This document shows positions 12,165-59,545 of a stretch of 64,000 nt of DNA, one piece after another. Each line of letters begins with the position of its first letter. Within the stretch, counting starts at the first letter, position 1. Position numbers and translations under genes: made by a program. The notes under the pieces are model-generated. The model was not told the origin of the DNA, did not search any database, and saw only the letters and a program-made list of their open reading frames with translations. The DNA comes from Microbacterium invictum (lineage in GTDB: Bacteria > Actinomycetota > Actinomycetes > Actinomycetales > Microbacteriaceae): contig NZ_JACIFH010000001.1 in NCBI RefSeq assembly GCF_014197265.1, forward strand, positions 1,736,001 through 1,800,000, read 5' to 3'.

Positions 12165-13046
12165 TCAACGTGCGGCGCGCTCCGCGGCCTCGACCACGTT
12201 CGTCAGCAGCAGCGCGACCGTCATGGGGCCCACTCCCCCGGGGTTCGGCGAGAGGTACCCGGCGACGCCGGCGACATCGGGGTGGATGTCGCCGAACACC
12301 GCAGACTTCCCGGTATCCGGGTCGGTCTCACGCGTCACGCCGACGTCGAGCACGGCGGCGCCGGGCTTCACGTCCTCGGCGCGCACCAGGTGCTTGACGC
12401 CCGCGGCGCCCACGATCACGTCGGCTTCGCGCAGATACCGCGGCAGGTCGACGGTGCCCGTGTGAGTGAGCGTGACGGTGGCGTTGAGCTCACGGCGGGT
12501 CAGCAGCAGCCCGATCGAGCGGCCGATCGTGACACCGCGGCCGACCACGACGACATGCTTGCCCTTCAGGTCGTAGTCGTTGCGCAGCAGCAGTTCGATG
12601 ACCCCGCGCGGCGTGCACGGCAGCGGCGTGTCGATCGGCCCGTTGACGTTCAGCACCAGGCGCCCCAGGTTGGTGGGGTGCAGGCCATCGGCATCCTTGG
12701 CCGGGTCGATCCGCTCGAGGATCGCGTCGGTGTCGAGGTGCTTGGGCAGCGGCAGCTGCACGATGTAGCCGTGGCACGCCGGGTCGGCGTTGAGCTCGTC
12801 GATCAGCGCCTCGACCTGGTCCTGTGTGGCGTCGGCGGGAAGCTCGCGCTGGATGGAGTTCATCCCGAGCTCTTCCGACTGCCGGTGCTTCATCCCGACA
12901 TAGAGCTGGGATGCCGGATCGGCGCCGACCAGCACGGTCGCGATTCCGGGGACGACGCCGTCCGCCTTCAGCGCGGCGATGCGTTCGCGCAGTTCGTCCT
13001 TGATGGCGGCCGAGGTCGCCTTGCCGTCGAGTCGGATCGCAGTCAC
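12165..13046 (-). CDS. folD: Methylenetetrahydrofolate dehydrogenase / methenyltetrahydrofolate cyclohydrolase
   Basis: A 293-residue bifunctional one-carbon enzyme linking 5,10-methylene-, methenyl- and 10-formyl-tetrahydrofolate. Family motifs include [16 protein letters not shown] (Tyr and Lys region of the cyclohydrolase site), [21 protein letters not shown] and the NADP loop [17 protein letters not shown]. The C-terminal [17 protein letters not shown] is diagnostic. The canonical Ser after VVGRG is replaced by Val. I place the start at the GTG 13046, with AAAGGA just upstream; an in-frame ATG at 13094 would add 16 untypical residues. It lies downstream of glyA in the same direction, separated by the repeat at 13165-13229. 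Confidence 0.95.
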
Positions 13047-13164
13047 GTGAGGAGTCCTTTCGGGTGGGAGAACCGGAGCTGACTTGAGAACCATGCCACA
13101 AGCGGGCCGCTCGCGCGGTCTCCGGTTCCTTCTATCGGAAGTCGATCGGCCTCGCCCCGTCGGT

Positions 13165-13229
13165 GAGAGAACAACCGGCCGCCGAGAGAACGGGGTTCAC
13201 CCGTTCTCTCGGCGCCGCACTGTTCTCTC
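13165..13229. repeat. GAGAGAAC 19-bp-period inverting repeat, copy 1
   Basis: Two GAGAGAAC cores start at 13165 and 13184, and two inverted cores (GTTCTCTC) start at 13203 and 13222. Every step is exactly 19 bp, including the one across the inversion. The centre folds as a perfect 14-bp stem (13181-13194 with 13200-13213) and a 5-nt loop. It lies in the glyA-folD gap, about 50-110 bp past the glyA stop. The same element with seven cores occurs at 41006-41127. Just before glyA (13237-13275) the word GGTGGATGCCGGGG is also repeated in tandem. Confidence 0.85.
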
Positions 13230-13277
13230 GCGGCTGGGGGTGGATGCCGGGGGGTGGGGGGGGTGGATGCCGGGGGG

Positions 13278-14552
13278 CTATTGCTGCAGGTCGGGGTACA
13301 GGGGGAACGCGGCCGTCAGGGCCGCGACGCGGGCGCGCAGGGCCTCGACGTCGGCATCGCCCTTCAGCGCGAGGGCGATGATGTCGGCGACCTCGGTGAA
13401 CTCCGCGTCGCCGAAGCCGCGGGTAGCCAGCGCGGGCGTGCCGATGCGCAGACCCGACGTGACCATCGGCGGCCGCGGGTCGTTGGGCACCGCGTTGCGG
13501 TTGACCGTGATGTGGATCTCGTGCAGCAGGTCTTCGGCCTGCTTGCCGTCGATCGCCGCATTACGCAGGTCGACGAGAACGAGGTGCACGTCGGTGCCGC
13601 CCGAGCGGATCGAGATGCCGGCATCCATCACGTCCTGCTGCGACAGTCGCTCCGCCAGCAGAGCCGCACCGCGCAGGGTGCGCTCCTGGCGCTCCTTGAA
13701 CGCCGGCGTCGCGGCGAGCTTGAACGCCGTCGCCTTCGCGGCGATCACGTGCATGAGCGGTCCGCCCTGCTGACCGGGGAACACCGCGGTGTTGATCTTC
13801 TTGGCGATGTCGGGATCGTTGCTGAGGATGAAGCCCGAACGGGGCCCGCCGATCGTCTTGTGCACCGTCGATGAGACGACGTGCGCGTGCGGGACCGGGT
13901 TGGGGTGCAGACCCGCGGCGACGAGCCCGGCGAAGTGGGCCATGTCGACCCACAGCAGCGCGCCGACCTCATCGGCGATGGCACGGAAGGCGGCGAAGTC
14001 GAGCTGGCGCGGGTATGCCGACCAGCCCGCGATGATGACCTTGGGCTTGTGCTCCTGCGCGAGTCGTCGGACCTCGGCCATGTCGATGACGCTGGTCTCG
14101 GGGTCGACGCCGTAGGCGACGATGTTGTAGAGGCGGCCCGAGAAGTTGATCTTCATGCCGTGCGTGAGGTGGCCGCCCTGGTCGAGCGAGAGGCCGAGCA
14201 GCGTGTCGCCGGGGCGGGCGATCGCGTGCAGGACGGCGGCGTTGGCCGAGGCACCGGAGTGCGGCTGGACGTTCGCGAACTCGGCACCGAACAGCGCCTT
14301 CGCGCGCTCGATCGCGAGCTCCTCGGCGACGTCGACCTCTTCGCAGCCGCCGTAGTAGCGGCGCCCGGGGTAGCCCTCGGCATACTTGTTGGTGAGCACC
14401 GAGCCCTGCGACTGCAGGACCGAGACGGGGACGAAGTTCTCCGAGGCGATCATCTCGAGGTATCCGCGCTGGCGGTCGAGCTCACGCTCGAGCACCTGTG
14501 CGATCTCGGGGTCGACCTCGGACAGCGGGGCATTGAAGACGGAATCGGTCAT
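13278..14552 (-). CDS. glyA: Serine hydroxymethyltransferase
   Basis: A 424-residue PLP enzyme interconverting serine plus tetrahydrofolate with glycine plus methylene-tetrahydrofolate. It supplies one-carbon units to FolD, encoded next. Motifs are [15 protein letters not shown] near the N-terminus, [13 protein letters not shown] (about 60-72), [24 protein letters not shown], and the PLP lysine in [13 protein letters not shown]. Length is standard. A GGAGAT site precedes the ATG. A ZTP riboswitch lies in the leader at 14624-14699, so expression should respond to purine/folate status. Confidence 0.97.
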
Positions 14553-17938: not shown

Positions 17939-20044
17939 ATGACCACGGACGACGACGCGGCCGAGATCGCCGATGTCGATCTCGTGCTTCGGGTGCGATC
18001 GGGTGATCGAGACGCCTTCGCAGAGCTGTGGCGACGGCACTATCGCTCGGGCATATCGGTGGCGCGCGCGGTCACCTCTTCGCTCGACCCGGATGATCTC
18101 GTGCAAGAGGCCTACACTCGCATCTTCCATGCGATCCAGAAGGGTGGCGGGCCGACAGGAGCCTTTCGCGCCTACCTGTTCACGAGCATCCGCAACACCG
18201 CAGCAGGATGGGGGCGCGCGCGTCGCGAAACGGCGATCGACATCCTCGATGGAGTTGCCGATCCCGCCGCCGAGGCGCACGCCACCGACGACGCCCTCGA
18301 CCGAAGTCTGACCCATCAGGCCTTCCGCACTCTGCCCACGCGGTGGCAGGAGGTGCTCTGGTACACCGAGATCGAGCAGATGAAGCCGGCCGAGATCGCG
18401 CCGTTACTCGGCATGAAGGCCACGGCGGTGGCGCAACTCGCGTTCCGCGCCAGGGAGGGGCTGCGCGCGGCGTGGATCCAGGCACACCTGCGCTCGGTCG
18501 CCGATGGATCGCCGTGCCAATGGACGATCGAGCGCCTCGGCGTGCACGCCCGCGGCACCCTCGGCAAGCGCGACACGGCAAAGGTCGACACCCATATCGC
18601 CGAATGCGCCAGGTGCGCCATCATCGCCTCCGAGGCCGAAGCGGTCTCGCACCGACTCCCGATCGTGATCCTTCCGCTCACGATCGGCGCAGGTGCTGCG
18701 ACCGCCTATCTGGCAAGCCTGCAGCACGGAGCGCTCTCGGCCGTCGCGATGGCCGCCGACGCGTCTCCCGTCATCCCGGACGCGATCGTGCTGACGGATG
18801 CGGCGGCGGCCACGGCCGGCCCCGGCATCGTGGGTGGCGGTGCGGGTGCGGCCTCCGCCGGATCGCTGACCATCTCCTTCGCGGGCGTCCTGGCGGCTGC
18901 CGTCGTGATCGGCGGCACCCTGGCCGTCGTGGTGCCGCTCGTCTCCCAGGCCACGCCGACGTCGATCGTCGGCGGCTCGACACTGATCCCGGAGGCCGCG
19001 TCGGCCTCGCCTGCACCTGCACCCGCGCCCGCGCCCAGCGGCCTCACAGCTCCGGCTACGTCGGTCCCGCTCCCCGGCGGCCTCGCCCCGGCGCGGGCTC
19101 CGGCCACGGTCGCGCCCGAGGCGCCCGCACCGCGCCCGGTCGCGCCGACGCCGACGCCGACGCCTGGCCCGATACCGACCCCCGCTCCGAGTCTCGAACC
19201 CACGCCGCACCCGGCACCCACGCGGGAGCCGTCCCTCGAGCCGACGCCGGCATCTGGCCCGACACCGACGCCCGGGCCTGATCCGACAGCGACGCCCGCG
19301 CCCGGGCCGACACCCGACCCGACTGCCTCACCACAACCGACACCCACGCCTACGGCCGAGCCCACGCCTACGCCTACGCCCGAGCTCACGCCCACGCCCA
19401 ACCCGACACCCACGCCCGAGCCTGATCCGACGCCCGAGCCCACGCCCGCGCCCACGCCCGAGCCCACGCCCGAGCCCACGCCCGAGCCGACGCCGACGCC
19501 CACGCCCAACCCGACACCCACGCCCTCGCCTGATCCGACGCCCGCGCCCGAGCCCACGCCTACGCCTACGCCTACGCCCGAGCCGACGCCCACGCCCGAG
19601 CCGACGCCCGAGCCGACGCCCACGCCTGATCCGACGCCCGCGCCCGAGCCCACGCCTACGCCTACGCCCGAGCCGACGCCCACGCCCGAGCCGACGCCCG
19701 AGCCGACGCCCGAGCCGACGCCCGAGCCCGAGCCCGAGCCCGAGCCGACGCTGACCCTCCCGGAGGGTCAGCCGACGCTCGGCGGTTCGGTTACCTGGAT
19801 CGACGACGATTTCCGGACCCACGTCGAGGTGGCCGTCGACGGCACGCCCGGCGCGACGGTGCAACTGTGGCTGAGCGGTGACAGCCGCCGCTATGAAGCA
19901 ACGCTGAACGACGCCGGCGGCGCCACCCTCGTCTTCCGGCCGACATTGTCCCAGCTCGTGCGGGACGTCGACGTGTTGCTGGCCTACGTCTCGGGAGACG
20001 AGCGGGGGCCGGCGACGACCGTCCGCCTCAGCGACCTGCTCTGA
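17939..20044 (+). CDS. Membrane-tethered ECF sigma factor fused to zinc-finger, TM and Thr-Pro stalk
   Basis: A 701-residue protein with a modular order. Region sigma-2 (about 15-90) contains DPDDLVQEAYTRIFHAI. Region sigma-4 (about 125-180) contains LPTRWQEVLWYTEIEQMKPAEIAPLLGMKATAV. A zf-HC2 anti-sigma-like motif follows (Cys193, then His219-x3-Cys223-x2-Cys226). One weak and one strong hydrophobic segment come next (about 239-262 and 308-336). Then a 200-residue Thr-Pro/Glu-Pro stalk runs from about 400 to 602, and a folded C-terminal domain of about 98 residues with a beta-rich look (SVTWIDDDFRTHVEVAVDG) ends the protein. This places a sigma factor in the cytoplasm on the same chain as a surface-exposed sensor. 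Release by proteolysis is a natural model but unproved. Actinobacterial ECF groups with fused C-terminal extensions are known; this stalked form is worth attention. Confidence 0.88.
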   Translation: MTTDDDAAEIADVDLVLRVRSGDRDAFAELWRRHYRSGISVARAVTSSLDPDDLVQEAYTRIFHAIQKGGGPTGAFRAYLFTSIRNTAAGWGRARRETAIDILDGVADPAAEAHATDDALDRSLTHQAFRTLPTRWQEVLWYTEIEQMKPAEIAPLLGMKATAVAQLAFRAREGLRAAWIQAHLRSVADGSPCQWTIERLGVHARGTLGKRDTAKVDTHIAECARCAIIASEAEAVSHRLPIVILPLTIGAGAATAYLASLQHGALSAVAMAADASPVIPDAIVLTDAAAATAGPGIVGGGAGAASAGSLTISFAGVLAAAVVIGGTLAVVVPLVSQATPTSIVGGSTLIPEAASASPAPAPAPAPSGLTAPATSVPLPGGLAPARAPATVAPEAPAPRPVAPTPTPTPGPIPTPAPSLEPTPHPAPTREPSLEPTPASGPTPTPGPDPTATPAPGPTPDPTASPQPTPTPTAEPTPTPTPELTPTPNPTPTPEPDPTPEPTPAPTPEPTPEPTPEPTPTPTPNPTPTPSPDPTPAPEPTPTPTPTPEPTPTPEPTPEPTPTPDPTPAPEPTPTPTPEPTPTPEPTPEPTPEPTPEPEPEPEPTLTLPEGQPTLGGSVTWIDDDFRTHVEVAVDGTPGATVQLWLSGDSRRYEATLNDAGGATLVFRPTLSQLVRDVDVLLAYVSGDERGPATTVRLSDLL
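19150..19745 (+). repeat. Low-complexity Thr-Pro/Glu-Pro coding repeat
   Basis: About 600 bp of CCGACGCC / CCCACGCCC / CCCGAGCC hexamer-like units encode (T/E)-P dipeptides of the sigma-factor stalk. Longer internal duplications are visible, for example PDPTPAPEPTPTPTPEPTPTPEP occurring in near-identical blocks around 19530-19610 and 19625-19700. Such DNA is prone to slippage, so stalk length probably varies between strains. Confidence 0.9.
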
Positions 20045-39366: not shown

Positions 39367-39519
39367 TCGCGGCCCCGTCGCGCAGCCACCCGTCATGGGT
39401 GAGCGGACACTCCCGGCATCCTGGCCGACGCGTGCGTTCACAGCTTCGGCGGAGCGGGATCCAGACCGCGTCCCGTACCATATGAAGGCGCGGGTGCGCG
39501 AAACCGGGGGGTGTGTACC

Positions 39520-40959
39520 GTGACCGATCTGGCTACGAGAGACCAGGCCGACGAGTCGGCCGGCTCGTCGTCGACCGCTGCCGAGACCCCGGCCGTCGCG
39601 TGGGCACCGGTGGAGTCGGCCGCGAAGAAGCGTCGCCTCGGGCTCTGGATCGGCATCCCCGCGGGTCTTGCCGTGGTGGGCCTGGTCGCCGGCTCGCTCG
39701 TACTGATCGCCCCGGGCACCGCCGTTGCGGGTGCCCCCGTCGGCTTCCAGACCGCCGGCAGCGCCACCGACTCCATCCAGAACCGGCTCGCCGAGACCAC
39801 GATCACGTTCGGCGAGGGCGGACCGACCCTCACGGGCGCCGAGCTCGGTGCGAGCGTGGATGCCAGTGCCCTGGCCGCACAGGCCTATGACGAGCGCCCG
39901 ATGTGGAACGTGTCGCAGTGGTTCGGCGACCCGGTCACCGCCGACGTCTCGATCGACGCCGAGGTCGCCACCGCGGCGCTGCGTGCCGCCTCCCCCGGAC
40001 TGTTCACCGACCCGGTCGCCGCCACGATCGCGTTCGACGGCAAGGCGTACGTCGCCACTCCCGCCGAGGCGGGCGTGGGCGTCGACATCCTCGCGATCCA
40101 GTCCGCGCTGAACGACGCATTCGCCGCCGGCGAGACGAGCCTGACGCTCACGCCCACGGCATCCGTCATCGAATCCACCACCACCACCGCGAACGCCGAA
40201 GGCACCGCCAGCGCCCTCAACGCGATGCTGGCGAAGGTGGGCTTCTACGTGGGTGACGAGCGGGTGGTGCCGATTGCGGCGGCCACCGCGGTGGAGTGGC
40301 TGACGGTCGAGGCAGACGACTCCGGCCAGTTCACGATCGCCGCGGACGCCGCGAAGATCCAGCCCTTCGTCGACGCGCTGGGGGACAAGGTCGACCAAGA
40401 GCCGGTGAACGGCAGCGTCATCGTGAACTCGGCCGGCAAGGTGCTGGCCACTCCGGTCGCCGGTCAGGACGGTCGCGTGCTGGGCGACACCGACGGGGTG
40501 GCCAACGCCTTCGCCGACCAGCTCGCCTCAGGTGATCCCGCCTACCAGCTGCCGGTCGAAGTCACGCCACACTCGATGGCCGAGTCCGTGCGACTGCTCG
40601 AGGTCGACCTCAGCGAGCAGCGGCTCTACGTCAAGGAGAATGGCGCGGTCACCGACTCGTGGGCGATCTCCAGTGGCCTGGACATCTCGCCCACCATCCA
40701 AGGCCGGTACGCGATCAACTGGCACGTCCGCTCGCAGACGATGACGGCGTCGGATCCCGACAACCCGTACTGGAACTACGAGGTCGAGAACGTCGAATGG
40801 GTCATGTACTTCAACGGCGACCAGGCATTCCACGGCATCTACTGGCACAACAACTTCGGCAACCAGATGAGCCACGGCTGCGTCGGCATGCCGAACTACC
40901 GCGCGCAGCAGATCTACAACTGGGCGCCCGACGGCGTCGAGGTGTGGATCCACGCCTGA
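39520..40959 (+). CDS. L,D-transpeptidase (YkuD) with tandem peptidoglycan-binding-like domains
   Basis: A 479-residue membrane-anchored cell-wall enzyme making 3-3 peptide cross-links or attaching proteins. A cytoplasmic start and one TM (GLWIGIPAGLAVVGLVAGSLVLI, about 43-65) lead to a long extracellular part. Residues about 90-330 look like repeats of the PG_binding_4/VanW-associated type. The YkuD domain ends with the catalytic block: His438 in HGIYWHNN, then SHGC with nucleophile Cys454. GTG 39520 is chosen over GTG 39511 because GGGGGG lies eight bases upstream. A -10-like TACCAT occurs near 39476. Confidence 0.92.
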   Translation: MTDLATRDQADESAGSSSTAAETPAVAWAPVESAAKKRRLGLWIGIPAGLAVVGLVAGSLVLIAPGTAVAGAPVGFQTAGSATDSIQNRLAETTITFGEGGPTLTGAELGASVDASALAAQAYDERPMWNVSQWFGDPVTADVSIDAEVATAALRAASPGLFTDPVAATIAFDGKAYVATPAEAGVGVDILAIQSALNDAFAAGETSLTLTPTASVIESTTTTANAEGTASALNAMLAKVGFYVGDERVVPIAAATAVEWLTVEADDSGQFTIAADAAKIQPFVDALGDKVDQEPVNGSVIVNSAGKVLATPVAGQDGRVLGDTDGVANAFADQLASGDPAYQLPVEVTPHSMAESVRLLEVDLSEQRLYVKENGAVTDSWAISSGLDISPTIQGRYAINWHVRSQTMTASDPDNPYWNYEVENVEWVMYFNGDQAFHGIYWHNNFGNQMSHGCVGMPNYRAQQIYNWAPDGVEVWIHA

Positions 40960-41005
40960 CCGGGCTCCCCCCGTGCGCGCGCGTGCCCGCGCGTGTCCCG
41001 GCCGC

Positions 41006-41127
41006 GAGAGAACAACTGGCCGCCGAGAGAACAACTGGCCGCCGAGAGAACGGGTGAAGGGCGTTCTCTCGTCCGTGAGGTGTTCTCTCGTTTGTCAGGC
41101 GTTCTCTCGTCCGTGCGGTGTTCTCTC
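41006..41127. repeat. GAGAGAAC 19-bp-period inverting repeat, copy 2
   Basis: Three GAGAGAAC cores start at 41006, 41025 and 41044, and four inverted cores (GTTCTCTC) start at 41063, 41082, 41101 and 41120. All six steps are exactly 19 bp, including the step across the inversion. The 11-bp spacers between like-oriented cores are similar but not identical (AACTGGCC types on the left, GTCCGTGAGG types on the right). It lies 47-170 bp after the L,D-transpeptidase stop and before the esterase. Confidence 0.9.
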
Positions 41128-41187
41128 GTCGGTAGGTGGCGCCGGGGGGCGCGAATAACGTTTCCCAACACCCGGTAGGTTGTGTGG

Positions 41188-42156
41188 ATGCCACGTTTCG
41201 ACCTCCCGCTCGAGGAGCTCCAGTCCTACACGCCCGACGTCCGCGAACCGGCCGACTTCGATGACTTCTGGCGCGCCACGCTGGCCGAGGCGCGGGCGGC
41301 GGCGCAGGATCCGGTCGTCGAGCCGGTCACCTCGCCGCTGACCACCATCGACGTCTTCGACGTGACGTTCTCGGGGTACGCCGGCGATCCGATCAAGGCG
41401 TGGCTCACGGTGCCGCGCGGTGCCACCGAGCCGCTGCCGGCGGTCGTCGAGTTCATCGGATACAACGGCGGACGCGGCCTGCCGGTCGAGCGGATCGGCT
41501 GGGCGTCATCGGGCTACGCGCACCTCGTCATGGACACCCGCGGCCAGGGCGCGCTGTGGGGCGTCGGCGGGCACACCCCCGATCCGCACGGCAGCGGCCC
41601 TGCGACGCCGGGGTTCATGACCCGCGGCATCCTCGACCCCGCCGAGTACTTCTACCGGCGCGTGTTCACCGACGCGGTGCGCGCCGTCGACACCGTCCGG
41701 GCGCTGCCGCAGGTCGACCCCGCGCGGGTGACCGTCGCCGGGGTGAGCCAGGGCGGCGGGATCGCGCTGGCGGCTGCCGGACTGTCCGAAGGCCTCGTGG
41801 CGGTGCTGCCCGATGTGCCGTTCCTGTGCCACTTCGAGCGGTCGGTGGGCATGACAGGGCACGACCCGTACGAGGAGGTCGTCCGCTATCTGTCGGTGCA
41901 TCGCGGCCAGGATGACCGGGTCTTCGAGACGCTGTCATACTTCGACGGGGCGAACTTCGCGACCCGCGCCACCGCTCCGGGGCTGTTCTCGGTGGCGCTG
42001 CACGACATGATCTGCCCGCCGTCGACGGTGTTCGCGGCGTTCAACCGCTACGGCCAGGCCGACAAGCAGATCGAGGTCTACACGTACAACCAGCACGAAG
42101 GCGGCCAGGCCGTGCAGTGGATGGTGCAGGCGGAGTTCCTCGCCGCGCGAACGTGA
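41188..42156 (+). CDS. Acetyl-xylan / cephalosporin-C type acetyl esterase (CE7)
   Basis: A 322-residue alpha/beta hydrolase removing acetyl groups from xylo-oligosaccharides or similar small molecules; there is no signal peptide, so it should be cytoplasmic. The catalytic triad is visible: Ser187 in GVSQGG, Asp273 in ALHDMICPPST and His303 in NQHEGG. MDTRGQG (about 115-121) is the CE7 RGQ motif. Length matches the family (about 320). The ATG at 41188 follows AGG at suitable distance. It has no obvious pathway neighbours. Confidence 0.93.
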   Translation: MPRFDLPLEELQSYTPDVREPADFDDFWRATLAEARAAAQDPVVEPVTSPLTTIDVFDVTFSGYAGDPIKAWLTVPRGATEPLPAVVEFIGYNGGRGLPVERIGWASSGYAHLVMDTRGQGALWGVGGHTPDPHGSGPATPGFMTRGILDPAEYFYRRVFTDAVRAVDTVRALPQVDPARVTVAGVSQGGGIALAAAGLSEGLVAVLPDVPFLCHFERSVGMTGHDPYEEVVRYLSVHRGQDDRVFETLSYFDGANFATRATAPGLFSVALHDMICPPSTVFAAFNRYGQADKQIEVYTYNQHEGGQAVQWMVQAEFLAART

Positions 42157-58512: not shown

Positions 58513-58594
58513 GGCGATCCTCCTGGCTTCGAACTGGTCCGTCGCCCGGTCGGGCTGACATCACGAACCTAACGAACCCGGGCGCAGCGCCGCG

Positions 58595-58612
58595 ATGGGG
58601 AGCACTCCCCAT
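58595..58612. promoter_or_regulatory. T7 palindrome, upstream of the small partner gene
   Basis: ATGGGGAGCACTCCCCAT, perfect 8-bp arms around CA, about 91 bp upstream of the ATG at 58512. On the minus strand it is followed by GTTAGGTTCGTG, which contains a TANNNT-type -10 candidate. Confidence 0.7.
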
Positions 58613-58645
58613 GCGGCCTCCCGCGCGTATCGCGGGCACGCGAAA

Positions 58646-58670
58646 GGGCGGGCCCGATGCGGACCCGCCC
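58646..58670 (-). terminator. Terminator after the distal WXG gene
   Basis: On the minus strand GGGCGGGTCCG pairs with CGGGCCCGCCC (11 bp with one G-U) across a 3-nt loop, followed by TTT. It lies 22 bp after the WXG stop. Confidence 0.8.
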
Positions 58671-58691
58671 CTCGAAGTGCGTTCGTGCGGC

Positions 58692-58979
58692 TCAGCCGCC
58701 GGCGAGCTGCTGATCCAGATCCTGGATCGCGCGCATCATGCCCAGCAGAGCCTCGGACATGTCGTTGATGCCGTCCGTGGCGTTCTTCAGACCCGTGGTC
58801 AGCTCCTCGTAACCGTCACCGAACTTGCCCGACGCGTGCTGCGTCTTGAAGTCCTCACCCAGCAGCGTGTCCACCTGGCTCTTCAGCGTGTCCAGCTGAC
58901 CCTGAATGTCGTCACGAGCCTGCGACAGCGACGAGGCCACCTGCTCCATCTCCGAATACGATGCTCCGAAATCAGCCAT
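58692..58979 (-). CDS. WXG100-like secreted protein, copy 2
   Basis: A 95-residue ESAT-6/EsxA-like helical hairpin protein, identical to the product at 59156-59443. Two helices (about 8-44 and 56-92) flank a turn GEDFKTQHASGKFGDGYEE. That turn lacks the W-x-G triplet usual at the hairpin turn but keeps Phe and Tyr at related positions. The start ATG at 58979 has GAGGGAG upstream; a TTG six bases earlier is less likely. It should form a dimer and be exported by the ATPase encoded upstream. Confidence 0.9.
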   Translation of the reverse strand: MADFGASYSEMEQVASSLSQARDDIQGQLDTLKSQVDTLLGEDFKTQHASGKFGDGYEELTTGLKNATDGINDMSEALLGMMRAIQDLDQQLAGG

Positions 58980-59058
58980 CGTCAACTCCCTCAGTCAAAA
59001 TTCCCGACCCACTCCGGGCCGACACCACGAACCTAACAACCCCCGCCCGACACCGTCG

Positions 59059-59076
59059 ATGGGGAGCACTCCCCAT
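59059..59076. promoter_or_regulatory. T7 palindrome, upstream of WXG copy 2
   Basis: Second copy of ATGGGGAGCACTCCCCAT, about 88 bp upstream of the ATG at 58979, with the same GTTAGGTTCGTG -10-like sequence downstream on the minus strand. Confidence 0.7.
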
Positions 59077-59109
59077 GCCGCCTCCCGCGCGTATCGCGGG
59101 CACGCGAAA

Positions 59110-59134
59110 GGGCGGGCCCGATGCGGACCCGCCC
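59110..59134 (-). terminator. Terminator after the proximal WXG gene
   Basis: Exact copy of the 58646-58670 hairpin, 22 bp past the stop of WXG copy 1. Together with the promoter-side palindromes it makes each WXG gene a separate transcription unit. Confidence 0.8.
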
Positions 59135-59155
59135 CTCGAAGTGCGTTCGTGCGGC

Positions 59156-59443
59156 TCAGCCGCCGGCGAGCTGCTGATCCAGATCCTGGATCGCGCGCAT
59201 CATGCCCAGCAGAGCCTCGGACATGTCGTTGATGCCGTCCGTGGCGTTCTTCAGACCCGTGGTCAGCTCCTCGTAACCGTCACCGAACTTGCCCGACGCG
59301 TGCTGCGTCTTGAAGTCCTCACCCAGCAGCGTGTCCACCTGGCTCTTCAGCGTGTCCAGCTGACCCTGAATGTCGTCACGAGCCTGCGACAGCGACGAGG
59401 CCACCTGCTCCATCTCCGAATACGATGCTCCGAAATCAGCCAT
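59156..59443 (-). CDS. WXG100-like secreted protein, copy 1
   Basis: A 95-residue protein identical in sequence to the gene at 58692-58979, including synonymous codons. See that entry for the fold. It lies 102 bp downstream of the EssC/EccC-type ATPase gene, which is consistent with being its export substrate. Gene dosage may matter, because WXG proteins are typically the most abundant T7 substrates. Confidence 0.9.
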   Translation of the reverse strand: MADFGASYSEMEQVASSLSQARDDIQGQLDTLKSQVDTLLGEDFKTQHASGKFGDGYEELTTGLKNATDGINDMSEALLGMMRAIQDLDQQLAGG

Positions 59444-59522
59444 CGTCAACTCCCTCAGTCAAAATTCCCGACCCACTCCGGGCCGACACCACGAACCTAA
59501 CAACCCCCGCCCGACACCGTCG

Positions 59523-59540
59523 ATGGGGAGCACTCCCCAT
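59523..59540. promoter_or_regulatory. T7 palindrome, upstream of WXG copy 1
   Basis: Third copy of ATGGGGAGCACTCCCCAT, about 88 bp upstream of the ATG at 59443 and only 6 bp past the ATPase stop. Confidence 0.7.
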
Positions 59541-59545
59541 GCCTG

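Follow-up and report, generated by a model that had tools for sequence, protein, structure and literature searches.

The locus studied here lies in the chromosome of Microbacterium invictum (G000), within a window of 64,000 nucleotides (the whole stretch of DNA that was analysed), where an array of short repeated cores separates a gene for an L,D-transpeptidase from one for an acetyl xylan esterase:

39511..40959, + strand: upstream gene, L,D-transpeptidase (YkuD, PF03734), of uncertain start, the gene caller preferring 39520
41005..41128, no strand assigned: whole array, seven CGAGAGAAC cores (three forward, four inverted) in 19-bp phase
41005..41051, + strand: the three forward cores, both spacers being AACTGGCCGC
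41024..41090, no strand assigned: canonical 67-bp four-core unit within the seven-core array, CGAGAGAAC-N10-CGAGAGAAC-N11-GTTCTCTCG-N10-GTTCTCTCG
41063..41128, - strand: the four inverted cores, with the core-strand spacers ACCTCACGGA, GCCTGACAAA and ACCGCACGGA
41182..42156, + strand: downstream gene, acetyl xylan esterase (AXE1, PF05448)

The initial annotation had described seven cores, three forward and four inverted, with a constant step of 19 bp, and this is borne out by the exact starts of GAGAGAAC (41006, 41025 and 41044 on the forward strand and 41063, 41082, 41101 and 41120 on the reverse strand; six steps, each of 19 bp). The full core is CGAGAGAAC, which extends GAGAGAAC and sets the bounds of the array at 41005-41128. 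Exact matches to GAGAGAAC number 11 in the window, against 1.52 expected (maximum of 6 in 100 shuffles), and all of them are confined to two arrays, seven at 41006-41127 and four at 13165-13229. The centre of the unit at 41024..41090, GGGTGAAGGGC, is without the GGGTG...CACCC symmetry common among the copies. The seven-core array is an enlarged (3+4) version of the normal 2+2 element. It had also been claimed that the spacers vary while the cores do not; this holds for the cores, which are exact, but not for all spacers, as AACTGGCCGC occurs twice and, in the inverted half, ACCTCACGGA and ACCGCACGGA differ by a single base, a pattern that suggests the duplication of whole 19-bp units.

The second array of the window occupies the gap between glyA and folD:

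12165..13094, - strand: folD (PF00763/PF02882), downstream of the 13164 copy
13164..13230, no strand assigned: second window copy, canonical 2+2, with first core TGAGAGAAC
13278..14552, - strand: glyA, serine hydroxymethyltransferase (PF00464)

The distance of about 50 bp from a stop codon noted for both loci proved to be 45 bp for the YkuD gene (stop at 40959) and 47 bp for glyA, and the reported difference in copy number between the loci is equally real (2+2 cores at 13164, 3+4 at 41005). An assembly artefact, which would have refuted the annotation, is very unlikely, because the chromosome is a single contig and the element recurs across other assemblies. The window contains two further repeats: at 58551-59543 a 464-bp unit occurs in approximately two tandem copies (97% matching), and positions 19337-19751, within the open reading frame 17939-20044, hold a long degenerate 6/12/18-bp repeat (GCCCAC type) that probably encodes a Pro/Thr-rich linker.

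Profile and pattern searches agree on 19 copies of the element in the 3.58-Mb chromosome, where the paired-core pattern gave 33 matches and its reversed control none. Sixteen of these copies are four-core 67-bp dyads (2+2), the other three being enlarged, with five (3+2), six (4+2) and seven (3+4) cores. In every enlarged copy adjacent spacers repeat exactly or nearly so, and the extra 19-bp units therefore probably arise through tandem duplication. Identity between copies was 0.97 in the outer core, 0.95 in the inner core, 0.69 in the spacer, 0.57 in the central 7 bp and 0.38 in the far flank, and the proposal that the core is under selection or is being copied was right as an either/or. Lone GAGAGAAC words outside arrays are not over-represented (seven in 400 kb against approximately 9.5 expected, scaled from the window).

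A covariance model built from 54 copies detected the family in at least 157 of 366 Microbacterium genomes (E up to 0.001), this figure and the per-genome numbers being lower bounds with 13 candidates scored per genome; the exact inner dyad was present in three of the 366. Copies per genome were approximately 19, 8, 35, 20, 15, 27, 37 and 18 in eight carriers and zero in two genomes without a match (ten genomes, E up to 0.01, counts halved as both strands were counted). A scan of named genomes added Microbacterium sp. W1N and M. luticocti, found by a pattern fixing most outer-core bases, which predetermines part of the core identity of their copies; the scan also gave diverged copies from a Leucobacter bin and from Rathayibacter tanaceti. 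When 398 genomes of Microbacteriaceae were drawn evenly, 18 matched (E up to 0.0001), distributed over six of 85 genera and including six Microbacterium; the other genera keep the layout, one example having CGAGGGAAC cores around a centre of 12. The length also varies little, 58 of 61 places fitting the 73-column model, which favours that length, in full (two measure 72 and one 84), and the conserved word keeps a fixed helical phase that is retained in the enlarged copies.

The spelling of the core depends on the lineage and is alike in both arms, examples being CGAGAGAAC, CGAGAGTGC, CGAGACTTC and CGAGACAGC. In G114 the spelling CGAGAGTGC accounts for 16 of 20 arms (10 copies), in G374 either CGAGACTTC or CGAGACTCC for 34 of 36 arms (18 copies), and in G213 either CGAGACTCC or CGAGACTGC for all 22 arms (11 copies). 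The seven copies of G172 carry CGAGACAGC in 13 of 14 outer cores and, exactly, in six of 14 inner cores, the remaining eight being one base off. Such dialects are kept within a genome, apart from G054 and G102, which hold at least two spellings each.

To place the copies with respect to genes we relied on gene calls from a simple script that uses codon usage and had been trained on the window. Of 114 copies, 17 overlap predicted genes, one lies at an edge and 96 are extragenic with a called gene on either side (55 tandem, 36 convergent and 5 divergent). Compared with the background of gaps of at least 70 bp in the M. invictum genome (n = 181; 120 tandem, 24 convergent and 37 divergent), divergent gaps are avoided (P = 0.0007) and convergent ones favoured (P = 6e-6), copies at shared places being counted separately in both tests. 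In tandem gaps the upstream stop is the nearer one to the copy in 41 of 55 cases. The neighbours are ordinary, varied and mostly metabolic or housekeeping genes (among them glyA, folD, glycine dehydrogenase, citrate synthase, isopropylmalate synthase, dnaN-recF and ribosomal S14). We rejected the reading of the family as a regulon, the neighbours being varied and no Pfam family having more than two matches among 58 further neighbours. Beside one element of G172, at L191:1851-1924 (- strand), there is a sub-threshold match to selenocysteine tRNA (39.8 bits against a gathering score of 47).

The gap behind glyA was followed in 20 carriers and 10 genomes without a model match, one of the carriers having no glyA match. 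Within 380 bp downstream of glyA, 20 of 29 genomes had a scored tetrad, against 5.9% of shuffles, that of G077 being at chance level; the other 19 belong to 16 of 19 carriers and to three of the 10 genomes without a model match, and present 11 outer words, some of them near variants. In six of the tetrad-less genomes glyA and folD apparently abut or overlap. The core words in this gap vary by species, and this applies also to M. dauci and SCN18, which have CGAGAGAAC in their other copies.

The geometry of the element is found with unrelated cores as well. A scan blind to the core (periods 12-28) returned 31 tetrad matches in 800 kb from three Microbacterium genomes, and a single shuffle per region gave none; the shuffles of our scans permuted two-base blocks. 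Twenty-five of the matches lie mainly outside predicted genes (one with 39% gene overlap) and all of these have a period of 18-20, while the six within genes have periods of 12, 15, 18, 18, 24 and 26 (Fisher P = 0.0005 for periods 18-20 outside versus inside genes, matches treated as independent). Four of the 25 are second matches, falling either in an array already matched or in a local duplicate, and none of the 25 falls in a divergent gap. The words recovered included AGCCGCATA, GRTGGCCAC and CCCGAGGAA in M. invictum, CGCATAAAC in G073, where the inner cores loosely resemble the outer ones with that word, and TGAAGGAGT in G052. Applied to six other families of the order (340 kb), the scan gave two matches and one shuffled match. 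One of the two is a perfect period-20 tetrad, CTGAGATCG, at L301:9793, and the layout may consequently extend past Microbacteriaceae. Direct 9-mer repeats, counted at distances that are not multiples of three, stand above the neighbouring distances at 19 and 20 bp in M. invictum and at 19 bp in G073 and G052, an excess that is not clear in the other families; at multiples of three the counts are raised throughout, which codon structure would lead one to expect.

Arrays of other words were also observed. GRTGGCCAC-like arrays with a 20-bp period and up to seven consecutive units lie in intergenic regions of M. invictum at 2039713, 2117243, 2174506 and 2189124 (L248, L252, L255 and L256), and seem to form a further family of this kind. 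Two related species carry arrays of GTGCAC words at a period of 21 bp (G114 at 3390033, L340/L341; G232 at 373132, L349). A second palindromic motif, GGATGCCGC...GCGGCATCC, was seen by eye in the intergenic flanks of several species (for example at L079, L083 and L165 and in G114 near 3498750).

Several places are common to different species, and we compared the spacers of copies at such places with those of all others. Spacer likeness between species was 0.562 for same-place pairs (n = 17, hand-listed from clusters of places) and 0.615 for other pairs (n = 942), against 0.705 for pairs within species (n = 367), and the nearest neighbour by spacers belonged to the same species in 44 of 52 cases (14.4 expected). 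At short range, the sequences indicate that the element is inherited in place. Between G114 and G232 (87% identity in aligned DNA) three copies differ at one, zero and five of 67 positions: conservation of the first clearly exceeds that of its right flank (29/60 matching), the second is like its flanks (58/60 and 55/59) and the third is worse than its flanks (50/50 and 49/50). G114 has a tetrad-like palindrome, with six mismatches, that G232 lacks together with approximately 100 bp; chance matches at this setting are common (18 and 13 in 200 kb of G114 and G232, respectively, with periods of 17-21), making this a weak case of presence and absence. In 11 of the approximately 37 copies of G213 identity is 0.95 in outer cores, 0.98 in inner cores and 0.91 in spacers, and falls to 0.38 in the central 7 bp and 0.33 in the far flanks. 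Arms nearly identical around a centre near background speak for selection acting on the arms, rather than for recent copying of the whole element, in this genome. The central 7 bp show an identity of 0.42 in G374 and of 0.54-0.74, above background, in M. invictum and the remaining species.

All eight stretches tested for folding fold strongly (z from -6.2 to -13.5), and a GC-rich hairpin is present near the stop codon. Pairing between the arms of an element is nevertheless slightly lower than in shuffled combinations, both overall (79.7% versus 81.0%; equalled or exceeded in 497 of 500 shuffles) and in the spacers (0.619 versus 0.664; equalled or exceeded in 1998 of 2000), and compensatory changes between arms show no excess over shuffles. 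A general rule of selection against palindromes is contradicted by G213, in which the spacer pairs are perfect palindromes in seven of 11 copies. No T-tract terminator pattern was found at the 41005 array, the sole copy scanned, and a search of Rfam with seven loci gave nothing above threshold, its two matches both lying under the gathering scores.

We searched for a mover or carrier through two transposase families, Y1 and rve. The Y1 transposase (RAYT, PF01797) was found in none of 28 genomes, 16 of them carriers, in a search that was positive in five of 14 controls including E. coli, and a RAYT/IS200 link is rejected for these 28 genomes. The rve transposase (PF00665) is lacking in G172 despite its approximately 27 copies, and arrays of eight known words flanked none of the 13 rve loci, which were detected in four of five genomes, so that an rve link is not supported. 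All 43 direct core pairs listed for M. invictum (up to two mismatches) sit in the 19 tetrads and thus provide no full-length partner. Flanking triplets of 54 copies were identical in 18 and mirror images in 13, with no clear target duplication. Plasmid sequences matched neither of two elements (one of each of two spellings) nor two 20-bp-period arrays, a phage collection had no match for the one element tried, and viral contigs were matched by neither of two patterns. A literature search, with thin coverage of subscription journals, found no title on such repeats in Microbacterium.

Comparison with known systems helps to delimit the family. As in REPINs (PMC3116915 and PMC8049555), short inverted extragenic units with conserved ends, a variable centre and the capacity to form hairpins persist as populations within genomes, with several groups per genome; an inverted pair of a conserved word, extragenic (17 of the 114 copies overlapping predicted genes) and with a variable centre, is what we find here. 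Unlike REPINs, each half of the present element itself repeats a 9-bp core directly at a 19-bp step, no Y1 accompanies it in the 28 genomes, its copies number at most approximately 37 in the ten genomes counted and not hundreds, and the compensatory arm changes reported there as common (PMC3116915) are not in excess. The DNA uptake sequences of Neisseriaceae are likewise short words with species dialects kept within species and are often inverted pairs tied to transcriptional terminators; they occur in thousands of copies (PMC3630211), and we rejected this reading on the grounds that single GAGAGAAC words are not over-represented. Intrinsic terminators share the strong hairpin, often just past stop codons, and differ in that the 41005 array has no T-tract and in the constant core spelling and fixed 19-bp phase seen here. 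The ends of Tn7, Tn5053/Tn402 and IS21 carry direct repeats of transposase sites of approximately 19-22 bp at both ends, mutually inverted; in our case there is no gene between the ends, the centre is short and variable, and no rve transposase is linked. Mycobacteriophage stoperators are dispersed intergenic repressor sites of lineage-specific sequence that are thought to block transcription. They are single asymmetric sites in phage genomes, unlike these four-core chromosomal dyads, for which the one copy searched had no match in the phage collection.

Taking all these results together, and judging from sequence comparisons, we tentatively place the array in a dispersed family of dyad-symmetric putative binding arrays at gene 3' ends, probably acting as barriers; a REPIN-like mobile element with an unseen mover is nearly as likely. 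For each family, a cognate sequence-specific protein would recognise duplex DNA and occupy the four cores at once, a form of recognition to which the fixed phase, the loose resemblance of inner to outer cores, the dialects, the lack of covariation between arms and the use of unrelated words in a shared geometry all point. Protein specificity and sites would change together over time. The placement at gene ends suggests that the complex may form a two-sided barrier between tandem and between convergent genes, where it would insulate or terminate transcription, and the extra 19-bp units supplied by tandem duplication would be tolerated because the phase is kept. Of the roles offered in the initial annotation, partly supported as a whole, that of a protein-binding array consequently fares best. 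Against it, the presence of several families in one genome (G000, G054 and G102) would need several proteins, any tolerated insertion would likewise avoid divergent gaps, and copying explains the species-wide similarity of spacers equally well; the mixed conservation of the three copies in G114 and G232 and a centre above background outside G213 and G374 also speak against it.

In the mobile alternative, a REPIN- or MITE-like non-autonomous element, a transposase or nuclease would recognise the cores and rarely copy the 67-bp dyad, survivors would be found mainly behind genes, and the spelling would reflect the local mover. Spacers more alike within a species than at the same place across species, the near-identical arms of the copies examined in G213, the species-specific words of the glyA-folD gap and the several families per genome are as it would have them, and the palindrome present in G114 and absent from G232 adds weakly to this side. 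The places common to different species, the G213 centre, which is not common to the copies as the arms are, and the outcome of the searches for a transposase, a full-length partner, a target duplication or a plasmid, phage or viral carrier weigh against it; of the mobile or expanding repeat first suggested, the gain of units is backed by the repeated units in three of 19 copies, and the mobility found no mover, clear target duplication or full-length partner among the searches made. Plain RNA hairpins, serving as intrinsic terminators or stabilisers of mRNA 3' ends without a dedicated protein, appear improbable to us. Strong folding, a mostly 3' location and left and right outer cores that change together between lineages agree with them, and to this extent the proposed 3' RNA structure stood, but the 41005 array lacks a T-tract, the arms do not covary, and genomes in which glyA and folD abut or overlap (6/29) would have no space for a terminator. 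Inner cores that track the outer spelling are not required by a hairpin alone, which moreover explains neither the constant spelling per genome nor a 19-bp phase shared by unrelated cores. More improbable still is a functionless by-product of replication, in which slippage would duplicate 19-bp units and template switching would copy arm onto arm; it accounts for the repeated units and for the perfect spacer palindromes of G213, and leaves unexplained why the same core stands at 19 dispersed places and why cores are so much better conserved than spacers and far flanks in M. invictum.

The binding-array reading can be extended to a gene-end marking system of Microbacteriaceae, in which paralogous proteins with one four-site geometry and diversified specificity would each act on a population of dyad sites behind housekeeping genes, the places being kept and the spelling rewritten from lineage to lineage in step with the protein. 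We regard this extension, drawn from the same comparisons, as rather unlikely; if true, it would amount to a gene-end barrier in bacteria that is sequence-specific, works in both directions and has species dialects. REP/RAYT biology is often invoked for short extragenic palindromes, and the present family combines a rigid phase, dialects and shared places with the absence of such a transposase from the genomes tested. Should a protein read the element, the many natural dialects of Microbacterium would allow the joint change of protein and site to be watched, and the element would be a candidate for gene separation in GC-rich actinobacteria, which to our knowledge are often without T-tract terminators. 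Should the element be mobile instead, it would point to an unrecognised way of moving short palindromes.
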